A stretch of 35,974 nt of DNA from Acidobacteriota bacterium (GTDB taxonomy: Bacteria; Acidobacteriota; Vicinamibacteria; Vicinamibacterales; CAVVIG01), in assembly GCA_023265175.1 (NCBI GenBank), contig JAHFUI010000026.1, positions 1-35,974 of the forward strand. Direction: 5' to 3'. The translations under genes and the position numbers were made by a program. Shown in pieces: positions 7,892 through 35,861 of this stretch. Numbering within the stretch: position 1 is the stretch's first letter; each line of letters begins with the position of its first letter. The notes under the pieces are model-generated. The model made no database searches. It saw only the letters and a list, made by a program, of their open reading frames with translations, and was not told where the DNA came from.

Positions 7892-9220
7892 TTGACAACA
7901 CTGTTGGCATTCGGGTTCGTGCTGGGCGTGCTCGTGTTCGTACACGAGCTCGGCCATTTCCTCGCGGCGAAACGCGTCGGCATCCGCGTGCTGAAATTTC
8001 AGCTCGGGTTCAATCCGACCATCCTGAGCTTCCACCGAGGCGATACAGAGTACAGCATCGGTGCGCTGCCCCTCGGCGGCTACGTGAAAATGGCCGGCGA
8101 GAGCCCCGAAGACGTGCGCACCGGTCGCGACGATGAGTTCCTGTCGAAGACGAAGTGGCAGCGCTTCCAGGTGCTGGTCATGGGCCCGGCCATGAATCTG
8201 CTCCTGGCATTCGTCCTCACGGCGGTCGTGCTGTATCGAGGGGCCGAGGTCCCGGTCTTCGAGGACCAGCCGCCGGTCGTCGGCGTCGTCGCCGCGGGCT
8301 CGCCCGCCGAGCGGGACGGGATCCGGCCGGGCGATCGGATTCTTGCCGTCAACAATCGCTCCGTCCAGACGTGGGAAGCGTTCTTCATCGCCATCGCTTC
8401 GAAGCCCGATCGCGAGGTGTCGATCGACATCGTGCGCGATGGCCGGGCGATGACGTTCAGGGTCACGCCGGCAACGGCGTCGGCCGGACAAAGCCGGTTC
8501 GAATACGGCGACGTTGGCGTGCTCCCGAACGTCCACCCGCATCTCGTCGCGATCAGCCCTGACGAACCTGGCGCACGCGCCGGCCTCAGGGTTGGAGACG
8601 TGATTGTGGCCGTCGATGGGAAGACGATTACGTTCCACCCCGATTTCAGGGCGCTCATTGCCAAGAATCCGAATAAGACCATGAGCTTGTCGATCCTCCG
8701 CGACGGGGCGCAGCAAACCATCGCGGTCACGCCGCGCCAGAATGGCGCCGTGGGCTACCTCGGTGTCACGCCAGTCGACGAAACCAAGAGCATCAACCCG
8801 ACGGCGGTCCAAGCCATCGGCATGAGCCTCCGAAAGAACGTTCAGACCGCCGGCCTGATCTTTCAAACGGTTTGGGGCCTGATCACGCGGGAGACGTCGC
8901 CAAAACAGCTGATGGGACCGCTCGCCATTGCCCAGCTATCCGGCGAATCGGCGCAGCTCGGATTGGTTGCGCTCTTGAGCCTCATGTCGATGATCAGCCT
9001 GAACCTTGGGCTTCTCAATCTCATGCCGATCCCGATTCTCGACGGCGGCCACATCTTCATCATGGCTCTCGAAGGCATCGCGCGCCGGGATTTCAGCGTG
9101 CGCGTGAAAGAAAAAATGCTGCTGGCCGGCTTCGTTGTCCTCATGATGCTGATGGTGACAGTCATCTACAACGATCTGACCCGAATCACCTGGATCGAGC
9201 GTCTGATGCCGTGGCGTTGA
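7892..9220 (+). CDS. rseP: RseP-type site-2 zinc metalloprotease
   Basis: 442 residues from a TTG. RseP is an inner-membrane protease that cuts transmembrane segments of anti-sigma factors and leftover signal peptides. The zinc motif HELGH (H18, E19, H22) lies in the first membrane helix, followed by FQLGFNPTILSFHRGDTEYSIGALPLGGYVKMAGE. Two PDZ domains follow (about residues 125-190 and 205-275, with GSPAERDGIRPGDRI and EPGARAGLRVGDVI). The C-terminal part has NLMPIPILDGGHIF, supplying the third zinc ligand. The TTG is preceded by CAGG at short distance and no ATG or GTG lies nearby. The neighbours dxr, cdsA and uppS are the usual partners of rseP in many bacteria. Confidence 0.95.
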   Translation: MTTLLAFGFVLGVLVFVHELGHFLAAKRVGIRVLKFQLGFNPTILSFHRGDTEYSIGALPLGGYVKMAGESPEDVRTGRDDEFLSKTKWQRFQVLVMGPAMNLLLAFVLTAVVLYRGAEVPVFEDQPPVVGVVAAGSPAERDGIRPGDRILAVNNRSVQTWEAFFIAIASKPDREVSIDIVRDGRAMTFRVTPATASAGQSRFEYGDVGVLPNVHPHLVAISPDEPGARAGLRVGDVIVAVDGKTITFHPDFRALIAKNPNKTMSLSILRDGAQQTIAVTPRQNGAVGYLGVTPVDETKSINPTAVQAIGMSLRKNVQTAGLIFQTVWGLITRETSPKQLMGPLAIAQLSGESAQLGLVALLSLMSMISLNLGLLNLMPIPILDGGHIFIMALEGIARRDFSVRVKEKMLLAGFVVLMMLMVTVIYNDLTRITWIERLMPWR

Positions 9221-11643: not shown

Positions 11644-13187
11644 GGTGTGTCGTCCATTCTACTCGCTTCAAAATAATTCACGATCGCCTCGACGAGAGCC
11701 GGCGTCGTGTAATGCGCGGGCATGATGGTCGTCCGGATGTTGCACTGCGCGGCCGCCTCAGCGGTCACGGGCCCGATCGAGGCGACGATGGTCGTTCGAA
11801 GCAGATCGGCCGCTTGCTCGGCGCCAAGGACCTGCACGAAGTTTCGCACCGCGGAGGGACTGGTAAACGTCACGACGTCAACCCGGCGTTCGAGCAACAT
11901 GCGGTAGACGTCGGGTTCGCCCTCGCCTTCCGGTTCGGCGACGATGGTCCGGTACGCGATAACCTCCGTGACCTCGGCACCGTGTCTGCGGAGCTCGTCG
12001 GCGACGATCTCACGACCGATGTCGGCTCGTGGCAGCAGGATTCGAAGACCGCGCACATCGCCGGTTCCCGAGATCGCATGCACGAGCGACTCGGCACGAA
12101 ATTCCGCGGGGGTCAGATCGACCTTCAGGCCGGCGCGCACCAGCCGCTCGGCCGTCGCCGGGCCGACAGCGCACAGCTTCACGCCTTTCAGCTCTCGGAG
12201 ATCGAGCGGACCGGCCAGCAGCCGCTCGATGAAGGCGTCGACCGCGTTGGCGCTGGAAAACACGATGAAATCGAAGCTCGCAACGTCTCGACAGGCGGCA
12301 TCCAGCGGACCGTAATCATCGGGAGGCGCGATCCGGATCATCGGCGCGTCGATGGCCTCCGCGCCCATCGACTCGATCTGCTCGATGAGCTCCGCCGCCT
12401 GATTGCGCGGACGGGTCACGACGATGCGCTTGCCGAAGAGTGGCCGGGAATCGAACCATCGCAGGTGCTCGCGGAGCGCCGCGACACGGCCGACGATGAG
12501 AACCGCCGGGCGCTGCTCGGTCGACTGCTTCGTCATCCTCGAAATCGCCTCGAGCGTGTCGACGACGGTCTCCTGCATCGGCAGCGTGCCGCTGTACACG
12601 AGCGCGGCGGAATCCTCCGGGGAACGGCCGTGAGAGAGCAGCGCGTGCACGATTTGCGGCAGCCGCCGCGGACCCGCGTAGCACACGATCGTGCCGTCCA
12701 GACACGCCAGGCTCGCCCAATCGACCGTCGCGCGCGTTTTCCCATCGTCTTCGTGGCCGCGGACGAACGTCAGCGTGTCCCCGCCGCCCGGGTACGTAAT
12801 GGGAATGCCGGCGTAGCTCGGGACGCCGATGCCGGCGGGAATCCCGGGCACGACTTCGAACCGGAGGCCTTGCTCGTGGAGGAACAACGCCTCCGTGCCG
12901 CCGCTGTCGAAGACAAACGGATCGCCCCACTTGAGGCGCGCCACGGTCTTTCCTTCGCGCGCCTTCTCCGCGAGCAGGTAGCAGATGGCCTCCTGGTCGA
13001 GCGGCTGGGGCGCGGCGAGGCCGACGTCGATCTTCTCCGCGTCAGGTCTGGCGTGACGCAGCAGGCGAGCGGAGATGAGATGGTCGTACAGCACGACGTC
13101 CGCGGATGCGAGATAGCGCAGGCCGCGCACGGTGATGAGTCCCGGATCGCCCGGACCGGCGCCAATCAGATAGACGATGCTTGGCAT
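11640..13187 (-). CDS. cobA-hemD: Fused uroporphyrinogen-III C-methyltransferase / uroporphyrinogen-III synthase
   Basis: 515 residues with two domains. Residues 1 to about 245 are a SAM-dependent uroporphyrinogen-III methyltransferase (CobA/SUMT): VYLIGAGPGDPGLITVRG, DVVLYDHLIS, ARLKWGDPFVFDSGGTEA, VVPGIPAGIGVPSYAGIPIT. Residues from about 250 (GKRIVVTRPRNQAAELIE) to the end are uroporphyrinogen-III synthase (HemD), with FIVFSSANAVDAF, LCAVGPATAERL, ILLPRADIGREIVADEL, VTFTSPSAVRNF and ASIGPVTAEAAAQ. HemD closes hydroxymethylbilane into uroporphyrinogen III; the methyltransferase diverts it to precorrin-2 for siroheme or cobalamin. Such fusions are common in heme clusters. The start is the ATG at the edge of a repeat array, without a visible ribosome site. 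Confidence 0.95.
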   Translation of the reverse strand: MPSIVYLIGAGPGDPGLITVRGLRYLASADVVLYDHLISARLLRHARPDAEKIDVGLAAPQPLDQEAICYLLAEKAREGKTVARLKWGDPFVFDSGGTEALFLHEQGLRFEVVPGIPAGIGVPSYAGIPITYPGGGDTLTFVRGHEDDGKTRATVDWASLACLDGTIVCYAGPRRLPQIVHALLSHGRSPEDSAALVYSGTLPMQETVVDTLEAISRMTKQSTEQRPAVLIVGRVAALREHLRWFDSRPLFGKRIVVTRPRNQAAELIEQIESMGAEAIDAPMIRIAPPDDYGPLDAACRDVASFDFIVFSSANAVDAFIERLLAGPLDLRELKGVKLCAVGPATAERLVRAGLKVDLTPAEFRAESLVHAISGTGDVRGLRILLPRADIGREIVADELRRHGAEVTEVIAYRTIVAEPEGEGEPDVYRMLLERRVDVVTFTSPSAVRNFVQVLGAEQAADLLRTTIVASIGPVTAEAAAQCNIRTTIMPAHYTTPALVEAIVNYFEASRMDDTP

Positions 13188-13188
13188 C

Positions 13189-13308
13189 GTAGTCGTCAGT
13201 CGTCAGTCGTCAGTCGCCAGTCGTCAGTCGTCAGTCATGTTGGCAGAGCGTCGACTGTGGACTGTCGATTGTGCACTGACGACTGTCGACTGTCGACTGG
13301 CGACTGTT
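13189..13308. repeat. Inverted heptamer array, unit CAGTCGT
   Basis: Arm one (13189-13239) has seven head-to-tail CAGTCGT-type units. Arm two (13250-13308) carries degenerate complementary units such as GACTGTC. It lies between the cobA-hemD fusion and hemC and continues into hemC, where it encodes the last 25 or so residues. Confidence 0.8.
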
Positions 13309-14381
13309 TGATTCCGAGCATCAGCGAGGATCTCGTCGGCGCCGTCGGCCAGCAGTTGGGCCGCCACTTGAGCGCCGATCCTGGCCGCCTCGCGTCGAGA
13401 TCCGTGCGCGAGGCCGCGCACCGCCCGGCTGCCGTCGAGCGACACCACCACGGCGACGAGCTCGATGCCGTCGCGGTCAACCGGTGTCGCCAACGCGCCG
13501 ATCGGAGTCTGACAGCCGCCGCCCAGCGCCGCGACGAGGGCGCGCTCCGCGGTCAGCGCGGCGGCCGCGGCCGGATCGTCGATCCGAGCGACGGCCCGCC
13601 TCACCGCGTCGTCATCATCCCGCATTTCGATGGCGACAATGCCTTGTCCAGGAGCCGGAACGCAAGCCGTGGGCGGGAGGGCCAGCGAGATGCGGGAGGC
13701 GAATCCCAGCCGCCGCAGGCCGGCGGCGGCGAGCACGATCGCGTCGTATTCGCCGCTGTCAACCTTCCGCAGACGCGTGTCGAGATTGCCTCGAATACCC
13801 GCAAAGTTCGCGCCTGGCATGAGTCGGGTCAGTTGCGACACGCGGCGCACGCTGCCCGTGCCGATGCGCGGCGACTGACCGAGGTCGGCGAGGAGCTCTT
13901 CGAGCGTCATCACGGCACCCGTCGTCCGGCTCAAGCCGGACACTACCGGATTGGTGTCCAAGCCCGACACGACCGGATCGGTGCTCACGCCCGGCGCGGA
14001 ACTCCATTCTTCGGCAGCGTCCGGCTTGAGCCGGACGTGAGATGCCGGCAACACCACGGCGTCCAGAGGATCCTCGCGCGGCAAGACGCCCGCGATCGCC
14101 AGCCCCTCAGGAAGGATCGCCGGCATGTCCTTGCTGCTGTGCACGGCGAGATCGATGTCACGCCGAAGGAGCGCGTCTTCGATTTCTTTCACGAAGAGCC
14201 GTTTGCCCCCGACCTCCGAGAGCGGCGCATCCTGCAATCGATCCCCGGACGTTTTGATCACGACGATGCGGCAGGGTGGACCACCCGATTCGACAAGCCG
14301 ATCGGCCACGGCGTGCGCCTGCCACAACGCCAGTTGGCTGCCGCGAGTGCCGAGCCGAAGCTCCTGGCGAGAGTGCGTCAT
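13224..14381 (-). CDS. hemC: Porphobilinogen deaminase (hydroxymethylbilane synthase)
   Basis: HemC polymerises four porphobilinogens into hydroxymethylbilane on a dipyrromethane cofactor. Motifs: LRLGTRGSQLALWQA near the start, HSSKDMPAILPEGL, IGTGSVRRVSQLTRLMPGANFAGIRGNLDTRL, and Cys290 in GGGCQTPIGAL, the cofactor attachment residue. At 385 residues it is longer than the usual ~310. Two causes are visible: residues about 115-153 are encoded by a REP-type inverted pair (13924-14036) set between DAVVLPAS and MTLEELLADLG, and the last ~28 residues are encoded by the CAGTCGT array. All catalytic motifs are kept, so the enzyme is probably functional. Confidence 0.95.
   Translation of the reverse strand: MTHSRQELRLGTRGSQLALWQAHAVADRLVESGGPPCRIVVIKTSGDRLQDAPLSEVGGKRLFVKEIEDALLRRDIDLAVHSSKDMPAILPEGLAIAGVLPREDPLDAVVLPASHVRLKPDAAEEWSSAPGVSTDPVVSGLDTNPVVSGLSRTTGAVMTLEELLADLGQSPRIGTGSVRRVSQLTRLMPGANFAGIRGNLDTRLRKVDSGEYDAIVLAAAGLRRLGFASRISLALPPTACVPAPGQGIVAIEMRDDDDAVRRAVARIDDPAAAAALTAERALVAALGGGCQTPIGALATPVDRDGIELVAVVVSLDGSRAVRGLAHGSRREAARIGAQVAAQLLADGADEILADARNQTVASRQSTVVSAQSTVHSRRSANMTDD
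13924..14036. repeat. REP inverted pair (REPIN-like) inside hemC
   Basis: Left element GTCCGGCT-CA-AGCCGGAC then ACTACC (13924-13947). Right element GTCCGGCT-TG-AGCCGGAC (14019-14036) preceded by GGCAGC, a decayed form of GGTAGT. They face each other over about 70 bp, which hold a further decayed copy (GGTGTCC..CGACACGACC). Together they add about 38 in-frame codons to hemC. Confidence 0.75.
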
Positions 14382-14555
14382 GTGCTGCGTGCTAGGTGCT
14401 GGTGCCAGTGCTGCGTGCTAGGTGCCAGGTGCCAGGTGTGCTGGGTGCGCGCGTGCTCGGTGGGTGCGCGCGTGCTCTGGCGCTCTCGTGCGCATCCTTT
14501 GTGCTGGACGCGCGTGGCACGCCGCCTTCAGCACCGAGCACCTGGCACGAAGCAT
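14382..14555. repeat. Inverted heptamer-type array, unit GGTGCTA/GGTGCCA
   Basis: From 14382 runs a series of GTGCTGC, GTGCTAG, GTGCCAG units, with a separate direct repeat of GGTGCGCGCGTGCTC (about 14445 and 14463), ending with the complementary AGCACCGAGCACCTGGCAC near 14530-14548. It fills the 182 bp between hemC and hemA. I see no promoter or gene in it. Confidence 0.7.
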
Positions 14556-15941: not shown

Positions 15942-16034
15942 GGATGTGAGGATCTTAGGATGTAAGGAAGTGATCGACTCACGCGTTCACATCCTCACAT
16001 CCTCACATCCTCACATCCTCACATCCTCACATCT
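15942..16034. repeat. Inverted octamer array, unit CACATCCT
   Basis: Arm two (from 15987) has six CACATCCT units in strict period 8. Arm one (15942-15968) is the decayed complement: GGATGTGA, GGATCTTA, GGATGTAA. It separates the HemX-like gene from hemA. The strict repetition without unique spacers rules out a CRISPR array. Confidence 0.8.
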
Positions 16035-22972: not shown

Positions 22973-22973
22973 A

Positions 22974-23079
22974 TCTGGTTATCTGGTTATCTGGTCATTT
23001 GGTTATCTGGTTATTGATTGAACGATTGAACGATTGAACGAGTTCAATAACCAAATAACCAGATGACCAGATAACCAAA
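22974..23079. repeat. Inverted octamer array, units TGGTTATC and GAACGATT
   Basis: Five TGGTTATC-type units (22976 onward), three GATTGAAC-type units in the middle, then the complementary AATAACCAAATAACCAGAT run to 23078, all in period 8. The stem arms match well. It fills nearly all of the gap between nuoJ and nuoK. Confidence 0.8.
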
Positions 23080-29063: not shown

Positions 29064-29158
29064 GCCACGAAAACACGAAAACACGAAAACAACCGTTTTC
29101 TCATTGGTGCGCGAGACAAACGCGTTTCTTCTTCGTGCTTTCGTGTTTTCGTGGTGGC
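29064..29158. repeat. Inverted octamer array, unit CACGAAAA
   Basis: Three CACGAAAA units (29066-29091) and the complementary run CTTCGTGCTTTCGTGTTTTCGTGG (arm to about 29154), separated by about 35 bases. It closes the nuo unit. A bidirectional terminator role is possible, but there is no T-run after it. Confidence 0.75.
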
Positions 29159-31664: not shown

Positions 31665-32612
31665 CTATCTCGTGACCCCCCTCGGGTTCACTCTCGCGCC
31701 CGGGATCCGCACCCCAAGGCTCACGTCGTTTCCACGCGACGAACCGACCGGGACCACATATTCGATCATCAGCTCGGGCGCCAGACGGTCCGCCAGTCGA
31801 TCCAGCGCAACTTGATACGACGCTGGCGAGAAAATCACCGTGAGCTCTCCGCGCGTCTGATCCGCCAACGTCCGCAGCGTCTCCCACGATCGCGCGCGAG
31901 GATCGCTCGCATCGCCCGGCGGATTTCCGTTGACGACGATGTGGACGGCCGCCAGGCTGTCGAGGATGGGCGTCAGGAGGCCGGCCGGCGTACTGCTGAC
32001 CGGGGCGGCCGAGACCAGCAGGATCGCCGCAAACGGCGCACCCGTTTCCTGAACCGCCCGCGCCGCGGTCACCACGGCCTGGAACAGACCTTCGGACGAT
32101 CCGCTCGCCTTGATCGTCCGTAGCCGCTCCAATGCGACCGCTCGCTCATCGTCGAAGCTCGCAATCAGGCGCGGCGGATCGGCGACCGCGATCGCGATCG
32201 GACGATGGCCGATCCGGCCGATGAACCGGGCCGCCGCCTGGCGGATCGCTTCGAGATCGCGGCCGCCGCCCCGGCCGTTATCGAGCACGACGGCGATTGG
32301 ATAGTCGGCCACGCGCACGGAGAGGACGTCCCGGGATTGTCCGGTCTCCCGGACGACGAAGTCGTCGGCTTCGAGATCGACGATGGACCGTCCCCGCGGA
32401 TCCACAACGGTCGCGAGCACCGTCCGGCTGGCGCCTATCAGCTGCGCCAGTGCTGCATGCTCGGTGCTCAATGCTGGTGCTGTGCTCGGTGCGCATCCAG
32501 CACCCAGCACCCAGCACCCAGCACCCAGCACCCAGCACCTGGCACCCGCACCCAGCATCGAGCACCCGGCAGCCAGCACCCAGCAGGTTAGAAGCGCAAG
32601 ATGTCGGAACAT
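31665..32612 (-). CDS. VWA-like lipoprotein with repeat-built signal region
   Basis: 315 residues. The start MFRHLALLTCWVLAAGCSMLGAG has a hydrophobic run and a lipobox-like LAAGC, so it may be a lipoprotein. Residues about 9-55 are encoded by a heptamer repeat array, giving repeated CWVLGAG. The rest resembles the VWA-like proteins at 16915-18785: TVLATVVDPRGRSIVDLEADDFVVRETG, then YPIAVVLDNGRGGGRDLEAIRQAAARFI, RPIAIAVADPPRLIASF and FAAILLVSAAPVSSTP. The metal motif is DNGRG, so MIDAS metal binding is probably lost. A perfect TATAAT lies 14 bases before the ATG. It is divergent from the TonB-dependent receptor. Confidence 0.75.
   Translation of the reverse strand: MFRHLALLTCWVLAAGCSMLGAGARCWVLGAGCWVLGAGCAPSTAPALSTEHAALAQLIGASRTVLATVVDPRGRSIVDLEADDFVVRETGQSRDVLSVRVADYPIAVVLDNGRGGGRDLEAIRQAAARFIGRIGHRPIAIAVADPPRLIASFDDERAVALERLRTIKASGSSEGLFQAVVTAARAVQETGAPFAAILLVSAAPVSSTPAGLLTPILDSLAAVHIVVNGNPPGDASDPRARSWETLRTLADQTRGELTVIFSPASYQVALDRLADRLAPELMIEYVVPVGSSRGNDVSLGVRIPGARVNPRGVTR
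32448..32586. repeat. Inverted heptamer array, unit CAGCACC, in a coding start
   Basis: Right part (32496 onward): six consecutive CAGCACC units, then variants (CTGGCAC, CAGCATCGAG, CCGGCAG) to 32586. Left part (32448-32490): complementary GGTGCTC, ATGCTGG, TGCTCGG units. The whole array lies inside the N-terminal coding region of the VWA-like lipoprotein. Confidence 0.85.
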
Positions 32613-32626
32613 CGGTGAATGGCGGC

Positions 32627-32632
32627 ATTATA
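32627..32632 (-). promoter_or_regulatory. -10 box TATAAT for the VWA-like lipoprotein
   Basis: A perfect TATAAT on the reverse strand ends 14 bases before the ATG, giving a leader of about eight bases. No convincing -35 match was found. The 296-bp divergent gap 32613-32908 holds this box, the receptor's ribosome site and otherwise no recognised signal; TTGACG/TATGAT at 32725-32750 has a spacer of only 14 and is doubtful. Confidence 0.5.
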
Positions 32633-32908: not shown

Positions 32909-35827
32909 ATGAAGTGTAATCTTGGAAAGCTCATCGCAGTGGCTTTCTCACTGGCACTTGCAGTCACCTTCGCCTTGCCTGCGTCAGCCCAGGTGTACAC
33001 AGGACGCATCGACGTCACGCTTGAAGACGCGACCGGAGGCCGGCTGCCAGGCGCAAGCGTGGATCTTACGGGCCCCGTCATCCAGTCGCAGACGACCGAT
33101 TCGCAAGGTCAGGCGCACTTCCTGAACCTGTCGGTGGGCACCTACACGGTCAAAGCGACGCTGCCTGGCTTCAATCCGTACAACAACACGAATGTTCAGG
33201 TCGTCTCCAACACGGCGGTGCCGCTCGACGTGAAAATGGCGGTTGCCGGCGCCGTGGAAACGGTCAACGTGACCGCCGCGACGCCGCTCATCGACATCAA
33301 GAAGCAGACGATCACGACCAACGTGACGCTCGAGGAACTGCAGAGCGTCCCGAGCGCGCGCGATCCGTGGGTCATCATGCAGTCGGTTCCTTCCGTGTAC
33401 ATGGACCGCGTCAACGTCGGCGGTTCCGAGTCCGGCCAGCAGTCGAACTACAACGCAAAAGGGGCGATGCAGGCCGACAATACGTGGGCGATTGATGGCG
33501 TGCCAGTGACCGACATGGGCGCGACCGGATCGTCGTCGTTCTACTACAACTTCGACAGCTTCCAGGAAATGGCGATCACGACCGGCGGCGCCGACGCGCA
33601 GAACCCGACGGGCGGCGTGCAGCTCAACATGATCCTCAAGAAGGGCGCGAACACGCCCCACGGCGACGCCAGCATCTATTTCTCCAACGACAGCACGCAG
33701 GACGTCAACATCTCGCCGACGCTGGCGGCCGCCGTCGGCAACAACAACCCGAAAATCCCGAACAGCAACAAGGGCAACCGAACCGACCTGTACCGCGATG
33801 CCGGCTTCGATCTCGGCGGGCCGGTCGTCAAGGATCGTTTGTGGGCGTGGGGGCAAGTCGCCCAGACCAACATCAGGCTCTTTTCGTTGGCTGGCGCGCC
33901 CGACGAGACGATCTTCAAGACGCGATCGTTCAAGCTGGACGGCCAGGCCAGCAACGACGTCCGCGGCAACTTCACCTTCTACTACAACAACAAGCTGAAG
34001 TTCGGCCGCGGCGCGAGCCCGCAGCATCCCGCCGAGACGACGTGGGACCAGAGCGGCCTGGGAGGCGGGACGAAGTATTTCAAAGGCGAAGGCAACTTCG
34101 TGGGCGGCCAGCGTCTGTTCGCATCCATCAAGGTCGCTCATGTCAAGGGCGGGTTCCAGCTGATCGCCGAAGGCGGCGACCGGGACTTCTACCAGGACGA
34201 GAACGGCGTCTGGCACAACTCGTTCTACAACTACGCGAGCGACCGGCCGCAGGACTACGTCGGTGGCGATGGCAGCTACTTCGCGGGCAAACACGAAGTG
34301 AAGTTCGGCGCTTCCTGGCGATCGAACCCTGTGACGACGGGACAGACCAGTCCCGCGAGCCGCATCTGGACGCTGCACGACCAGGTGTATCCTCGCGTCA
34401 CCGCTGAAGCGGCCCGCGATACGCAGTTGGCAAGCGAGGCCAAGTACGTCAGCGCGTTCGTCACCGACACGGTCTTGCTCGATCGGTTGACACTCACCGG
34501 CGGCCTTCGATTCGATCGTCAGACATCGGGCCTCGCCCAATCGTCGATTCCCGGCGTAACAGGGATCGCGAGTCTGCCGGCTATCAATTCGCCGGCCGTT
34601 CCCAACGCCTATAGGTTCAACAACGTCACACCTCGCGTCGGCGCGACCTACGCCCTCGATGCCGCGCACAAGACGATCGCCCGCGCGAGTTACGCGATGT
34701 TTGCGTCGCAGCTTCCAGGCACGCAGGCGAATTTCATCTCGCCGATCCAGTACGCGTACGCTTACTACAACGCCATCGACAGGAACGGCGACCATATCGC
34801 GCAGTTGAGCGAAATTCTGTTCAACGAAGGGCTGCAGGGTTACTCGGGATTCGACCCCACGGATCCGCTCAGGCTCACGAGCGTCAACAAGGTGGATCCC
34901 AACGTGAAGGCGCCGCGCACCCACGAGGCCTTGGTCGGCGTCGATCGTGAATTGATGCCGAACCTGGCCTTCAGCGCCACCTTCACCTGGCGGCGGATGA
35001 ACGACATGCTCTGGCAGCCGCTCATCGGCGTGAAGTCCACCGACTACGTCCAGACCGGAACGCTGTCGGGCACGCTTCCGGAGCTCGGGTCGTACAGCGT
35101 GCCGCTCTACGCGCTTCGCGCGAGCGCGGTGCCGCCGGGCGGGGGCCAGTTCTCGACGAACCGAGCGGGATACCACCAGCGGTTTGTCGGGTTGGAGATG
35201 CAGCTTACCAAGCGGATGTCGGACCGCTGGATGGGCCGGCTCGGGTTTTCCACGAACTCCTGGACGGAACACTTCGACGATCCGTCCGTGGCGATCATCG
35301 ATCCGACCAAAGCTCCCGCTCCTGACGTCGGGTCGCGCCCGTTTGCCGGACCGCAAATCGACCGTGGGCAGGTGGTCCGATCGGCGACCGGTAGCGGCAA
35401 GAGCGGCATCTACATGGTCGCGCCTCGATATCAAATCATCGCGAACGGCCTGTATCAGGCCCCGTGGGGCTTCAACTTCGGCGCCAGCGTGGGCACGCAG
35501 CAGGGGTATGCCGAACCGTTCTTCCAGACTCGCGTCTCCACGGGCGATCCGCTGGGACGTAAGACCGTGCTGCTCGCACCAAACGCCGATGCGTTCCGGC
35601 TCCCGGCCGTCACCTCGATGGGTGCCCGTGTGGAGTGGAAGGGCACGTTGGCAGGTCGTTACAACGTTGCGCTGGATCTGGACGTCTTCAACGTGTTCAA
35701 TTCCGACACCATTCTTGGGAAGCAGTTCGACGCACGGTTCCCGACGACGTCTCCGACCGGCTTCGGCCAAGTGCTCGAGATCATGAACCCGCGCGTCGCG
35801 CGGCTGGGTGTGCGGTTCTTCTTCTAG
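32909..35827 (+). CDS. TonB-dependent receptor, Oar-like, with carboxypeptidase-regulatory domain
   Basis: 972 residues. A signal peptide (KLIAVAFSLALAVTFALPASAQ) is followed by a carboxypeptidase-regulatory-like Ig domain (about 30-115: GRIDVTLEDATGGRLPGASVDLTGP, TDSQGQAHFLNLSVGTYTVKATLPGF), then a plug domain (ETVNVTAATPLIDIKKQTI, VNVGGSESGQQSNYNAKGA, WAIDGVPVTD) and a beta barrel rich in aromatic strands, ending ARLGVRFFF with the terminal Phe used for outer-membrane insertion. Such proteins take up large or complexed substrates with TonB energy, often glycans or peptides in Acidobacteriota; the ligand cannot be told. No SusD-like partner lies in the window. A good terminator follows. Confidence 0.93.
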   Translation: MKCNLGKLIAVAFSLALAVTFALPASAQVYTGRIDVTLEDATGGRLPGASVDLTGPVIQSQTTDSQGQAHFLNLSVGTYTVKATLPGFNPYNNTNVQVVSNTAVPLDVKMAVAGAVETVNVTAATPLIDIKKQTITTNVTLEELQSVPSARDPWVIMQSVPSVYMDRVNVGGSESGQQSNYNAKGAMQADNTWAIDGVPVTDMGATGSSSFYYNFDSFQEMAITTGGADAQNPTGGVQLNMILKKGANTPHGDASIYFSNDSTQDVNISPTLAAAVGNNNPKIPNSNKGNRTDLYRDAGFDLGGPVVKDRLWAWGQVAQTNIRLFSLAGAPDETIFKTRSFKLDGQASNDVRGNFTFYYNNKLKFGRGASPQHPAETTWDQSGLGGGTKYFKGEGNFVGGQRLFASIKVAHVKGGFQLIAEGGDRDFYQDENGVWHNSFYNYASDRPQDYVGGDGSYFAGKHEVKFGASWRSNPVTTGQTSPASRIWTLHDQVYPRVTAEAARDTQLASEAKYVSAFVTDTVLLDRLTLTGGLRFDRQTSGLAQSSIPGVTGIASLPAINSPAVPNAYRFNNVTPRVGATYALDAAHKTIARASYAMFASQLPGTQANFISPIQYAYAYYNAIDRNGDHIAQLSEILFNEGLQGYSGFDPTDPLRLTSVNKVDPNVKAPRTHEALVGVDRELMPNLAFSATFTWRRMNDMLWQPLIGVKSTDYVQTGTLSGTLPELGSYSVPLYALRASAVPPGGGQFSTNRAGYHQRFVGLEMQLTKRMSDRWMGRLGFSTNSWTEHFDDPSVAIIDPTKAPAPDVGSRPFAGPQIDRGQVVRSATGSGKSGIYMVAPRYQIIANGLYQAPWGFNFGASVGTQQGYAEPFFQTRVSTGDPLGRKTVLLAPNADAFRLPAVTSMGARVEWKGTLAGRYNVALDLDVFNVFNSDTILGKQFDARFPTTSPTGFGQVLEIMNPRVARLGVRFFF

Positions 35828-35861
35828 AATTCGGAATTCCTAATTCAGAATTCCGAATTCT
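35826..35861. repeat. Heptamer array forming a perfect 14-bp inverted repeat
   Basis: GAATTCG, GAATTCC, TAATTCA, GAATTCC, GAATTCT in period 7. The outer parts AGAATTCGGAATTC (35826-35839) and GAATTCCGAATTCT (35848-35861) are exact reverse complements. It overlaps the receptor stop codon. Confidence 0.75.

Follow-up and report, generated by a model that had tools for sequence, protein, structure and literature searches.

A dispersed heptamer repeat is probably tolerated in the signal peptide and linker of an acidobacterial VWA-like protein

The window, by which we mean the whole 35,974-nucleotide stretch of Acidobacteriota DNA analysed here, carries on its minus strand a gene for a VWA-like protein in which codons 10-55, close to the start, are made up of a degenerate heptamer repeat. 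The same heptamer is dispersed through the genome, and the explanation that we consider probable is that it arose in frame in this lineage and is tolerated as part of a signal peptide and linker, with no switch having been built from it. The features concerned are these:

31665..32612, minus strand: intact gene for a 315-residue, putatively exported VWA-like protein with a degenerate MIDAS (LDNGRGG), from the open reading frame, TIGR03436, VWA_2 and 15 orthologs
32627..32632, minus strand: TATAAT -10 box, 14 nt before the ATG and present upstream of ortholog starts too, from ortholog comparison
32610..32612, minus strand: ATG start codon, for which a leader of about 8 nt is predicted on the assumption that transcription begins 7 nt past the -10 box, from -10 geometry
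32493..32585, minus strand: main heptamer array, sense TGCTGGG (CAGCACC on the plus strand), encoding approximately residues 10-40 with the lipobox LAAGC (C17) and two copies of CWVLGAG, from TRF and the open reading frame
32497..32539, minus strand: longest perfect 7-periodic run, 43 nt or 6.1 units, and the most slippage-prone part, from frame simulation
32450..32492, minus strand: inverted, degenerate arm of the heptamer (TGCTNNG), encoding APSTAPALSTEHAA and predicted to form a long hairpin with the main array, from RNA folding

The reading frame that opens at ATG 32612 meets no stop through the heptamer array, and the protein N-terminus read from this codon is MFRHLALLTCWVLAAGCSMLGAGARCWVLGAGCWVLGAGCAPSTAPALSTEHAALAQLIGASR. 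Residues 10-55 are encoded by the degenerate GGTGCT[C/G] array followed by its inverted arm, which agrees with the proposal, made in a sequence-only reading of this DNA, that an array lies inside the start of the gene and supplies residues 9-55 or so, including a repeated CWVLGAG and several cysteines. TRF describes the main array as having a period of 7, 13.4 copies and 83% matches. CWVLGAG occurs twice exactly in the N-terminal region, along with the two variants CWVLAAG and CSMLGAG, and the cysteines of the array-encoded part stand at positions 10, 17, 26, 33 and 40. The heptamer always encodes a single heptapeptide in each orientation (CWVLGAG in the gene sense, QHPAPST in the other), and neither orientation contains a stop codon in any frame. 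Because all three frames through the unit are open, an open frame alone is weak evidence of coding, and the coding status of the array rests instead on the arguments from the start codon and from export.

For the start codon the orthologs are informative. When the 220 nt preceding the conserved domain were searched, 8 of the 15 orthologs from the family had an exact TATAAT a short way before the start and two more had TCTAAT, while TATAAT was found nowhere else in the same ortholog loci. The box precedes an in-frame GTG by 7-10 nt in the orthologs that have it and the ATG by 14 nt in the window, and this larger spacing counts against our preferred explanation. In standard -10 geometry transcription begins about 7 nt after the hexamer, so that the orthologs would be nearly leaderless and the window gene would have the leader of about 8 nt listed above. 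The N-terminus is hydrophobic directly after the start in nearly all orthologs, and a start placed after the array would remove this property from the window protein. Since the -10 box and the hydrophobic N-termini are both kept, ATG 32612 is well supported by these comparisons as the true start, as had been supposed from the promoter box 14 bases before it.

The array would also complete the export signal. Nine residues alone, MFRHLALLT, come before the array, whose codons supply the remainder of the hydrophobic segment together with the lipobox LAAGC (C17). The lipoprotein rule (PS51257-type) places the lipobox cysteine within positions 15-35 and a basic residue in the first seven; read by hand, MFRHLALLTCWVLAAG-C17S agrees with it, whereas C33 fails owing to R25 in the forbidden stretch and C40 lies too far in. 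Lipidation of the window protein is thus plausible on its sequence. However, the lipobox is not conserved among the 15 orthologs, most of which are without a lipobox cysteine, although one (L034) has cysteines in its signal region (VLCVLCGC). The lipobox-like LAAGC pointed out earlier is hence a good fit at C17, but a clean lipobox does not characterise the family, and here it is written by the repeat.

The part of the protein after the array, residues 61-315, is 41-52% identical to its orthologs from 15 same-family genomes, and none of the 15 (0/15) carries the heptamer array. Between the start and the conserved ASR motif there are 24-42 codons in orthologs with a recognisable box and 60 in the window gene, the difference being due to the array. 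A contig scan of genomes with the window protein as query found no relative. At E ≤ 0.01, TIGR03436 (acidobact_VWFA) recognises 14 of 16 family members; the window protein itself matches this model with E 8.9e-7 and 28.7 bits, short of the curated cutoff of 81.25, and matches VWA_2 with E 0.015 and 16.3 bits, below the 27-bit cut-off. Unlike the TIGR03436 proteins it is missing the MIDAS serines, having LDNGRGG in place of DxSxS, and the aligned orthologs are also without DxSxS at this position. A search of solved structures with the ortholog profile gave weak matches to hypothetical proteins only. The protein is thus a diverged and weakly assigned member of the acidobacterial VWA group, and its earlier description as VWA-like is upheld to that extent.

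The heptamer is not confined to this gene. The degenerate pattern AGCACNNAGCACNNAGCAC gave 52 matches in the genome, at about 21 sites, against 0 for a reversed control, so the array is not a product of chance. These sites lie mostly at gene edges, for example directly before pdxJ. Among the approximately 20 sites other than that in the window, at least three are in frame within coding sequence, a tally that is biased in that off-frame copies tend to be counted as intergenic: one in a variable loop of NuoL (FHGERAGEHPAPSTEHPAPSTQRHLHDAPP), one in a His-rich loop of LarC, the loops of aligned relatives differing at both places, and one in the linker region of a second VWA protein (G000:C197). 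A further copy (C20) may add N-terminal residues to an oligopeptide ABC ATPase whose start is uncertain, and in a cytochrome-like ORF of another genome (G089, L011) a heptamer array is read likewise after the signal peptide. Codon-usage scoring of the array flanks was too noisy in this GC-rich genome. The genes in or beside the repeat are mixed (NuoL, LarC, the oligopeptide ABC ATPase, PdxJ and a radical SAM protein), and the in-frame copies together with the bias towards gene edges fit a dispersed repeat that is tolerated at weakly constrained sites.

Other short repeats were seen in the window, and the genome holds several families of 7-8 nt tandem repeats. The gap immediately ahead of ATG 14381(-), at 14382-14555, is occupied by a degenerate GTGCTNN copy of the heptamer that has a short inverted arm. 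The adjacent, inverted arrays TCGTCAG x7.3 and GTCGACT x8.3 (13187-13307) form another hairpin of different sequence at the 3' end of gene 13224-14381(-). Perfect or near-perfect octamer arrays occur at 15987-16033, 22973-23041 and 29066-29091 (TCACATCC, ATCTGGTT, GATTGAAC, CACGAAAA). A GAATTC-based palindromic repeat with a 14-nt period (35827-35860) directly abuts the stop codon of a TonB-receptor-like gene (32909-35827). ARAGORN called a tRNA-SeC with anticodon tca at 8425-8518 (+), which may be spurious, there being no Rfam RNA at gathering threshold in the window.

Beyond this genome, exact four-unit heptamer arrays occur in many phyla among the matches listed. Arrays with two arms point inward (GTGCT then AGCAC) far more often than outward, by 23 to 2 in a public-genome sample and by 17 to 1 in the related genome G045, where about ten such arrays sit in the space between convergent genes, often in contact with both stop codons, gene calls here being ORF-based and approximate. 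In G045 (L292-L319) the inward arms fill the convergent gaps and frequently overlap stop codons in a TA-GTGCT register; such arrays may act as bidirectional terminators. G072, like G045 an array-rich relative, had single arms only at the sites fetched, and no array shared by G045 and G072 was found, the flanks giving a single, weak match at protein level and no array-bearing orthologous pair. The expansions thus look lineage-specific.

It had also been proposed that the array could switch the protein on and off, since its unit is not a multiple of three. Such a contingency locus would operate by slipped-strand mispairing in the perfect tract, with frameshifts alternately silencing and restoring a surface lipoprotein in the manner of the CTCTT repeats of Neisseria opa; we regard it as unlikely. 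In simulation, gain or loss of one or two units leaves a truncated product of 45-113 residues and changes in multiples of three stay open, a change of three units restoring the frame, so that slippage would confer a capacity for frameshifting, albeit one that is probably incidental and unselected. The 43-nt perfect run is the longest among the sites examined in the genome (the runner-up has 41 nt). In opa too, a non-triplet repeat is located where the signal peptide of an exported protein is encoded, but opa is a multigene family with switching demonstrated at about 1e-3 per cell per generation (PMC3745409), whereas here there is one gene, known from the sequence of one genome, with only six perfect units and the remainder degenerate. 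Heptanucleotide tracts in or near genes of surface function are also on record, including CAAACAC(5-34), a listed genic phase-variable tract of Neisseria pglE (PMC5953494), and in H. influenzae the TGAAAGA repeats of the hmw1A/hmw2A promoters and the AACAACC tracts of TonB receptors (PMC2651432); those tracts vary between strains, whereas the window array belongs to a dispersed family. Its absence from all 15 orthologs argues against a dedicated switch, and the mixed functions of the genes that bear or adjoin the repeat run counter to a surface-gene role. NuoL and LarC also contain the heptamer in frame; an off state would be implausible for either, and the occurrence of the heptamer in complex I implies that the repeat is not by itself a switch. 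The proposed frameshift capacity thus holds good, but nothing in the dispersal, the orthologs or the in-frame copies in NuoL, LarC and the other VWA protein indicates that the array serves to switch the gene, and on/off switching is possible but not favoured.

Slightly less likely again is that the array is 5' untranslated or regulatory, with translation starting after it at a TTG (codon 48) and the array or its hairpin controlling expression. The hairpin formed by the array and inverted arm in the sense transcript is predicted to be very stable (-105.3 kcal/mol, z -4.4), and relatives carry the heptamer as inward hairpins between genes. The post-array protein, however, would have no signal peptide of the kind that nearly all orthologs show directly after their start, and an upstream ATG is available in frame with a signal peptide of lipoprotein type.

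That the G-rich sense strand, with its repeated GGG-N4, might act as a G-quadruplex, as was proposed for the GGGNATC heptamers of Xanthomonas and Nostoc, is very improbable, because despite a GGGTGCTGGGTGCTGGGTGCTGGG motif on that strand, and a GGG-N4 geometry and dispersed gene-edge placement shared with those repeats (PMC4692102), the consensus in units next to perfect pairs is TGCT[C/G]GG, in which C is no rarer than G at the first position of the tract, and a quadruplex was rejected as the conserved property of the heptamer. The GGGNATC repeats (Rehm et al., 2015; PMC4692102) are the closest known kind, having a 7-nt unit, many dispersed copies that lie mostly at gene edges and can overlap stop codons, and mixed neighbours. 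The window heptamer likewise has many copies mostly at gene boundaries; it differs in its unit, GGTGCT[C/G], in which the GGG tract is not conserved, in often forming inward inverted arms, and in entering some coding loops in frame and, here, a signal peptide.

According to the explanation that we favour, a GGTGCT[C/G] repeat with an inverted arm would have arisen in the present lineage, lying in frame after the start codon and ahead of the VWA-like domain in an otherwise ordinary gene. Transcription from the conserved TATAAT box would yield an mRNA with a very short leader, translated from ATG 32612. The first nine codons and the array-derived codons that follow would together make up the signal peptide, so that the protein would be exported and possibly lipidated, with LAAGC (C17) as an incidental product of the array. 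The rest of the array and the inverted arm would form a linker that is tolerated without a dedicated function.

A literature search for heptamers in Acidobacteria found nothing, and this heptamer family, with its marked inward-pair geometry, is little described. We tentatively suggest, as a wider view that is itself doubtful, that GGTGCT[C/G] arrays, often with two inward arms, constitute a dispersed hairpin family that undergoes separate expansions in different lineages of Acidobacteriota, prefers convergent gaps and sometimes enters coding sequence, and that in the present case may have reshaped a signal peptide, given rise to a lipobox and left a gene prone to frameshifting. The mode of growth of the family and its role at convergent gene ends are testable features. 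The case also carries a caution, in that a non-triplet repeat near a start codon need not be a phase switch, as the genes for complex I and a nickel-insertion protein contain the same heptamer in frame.
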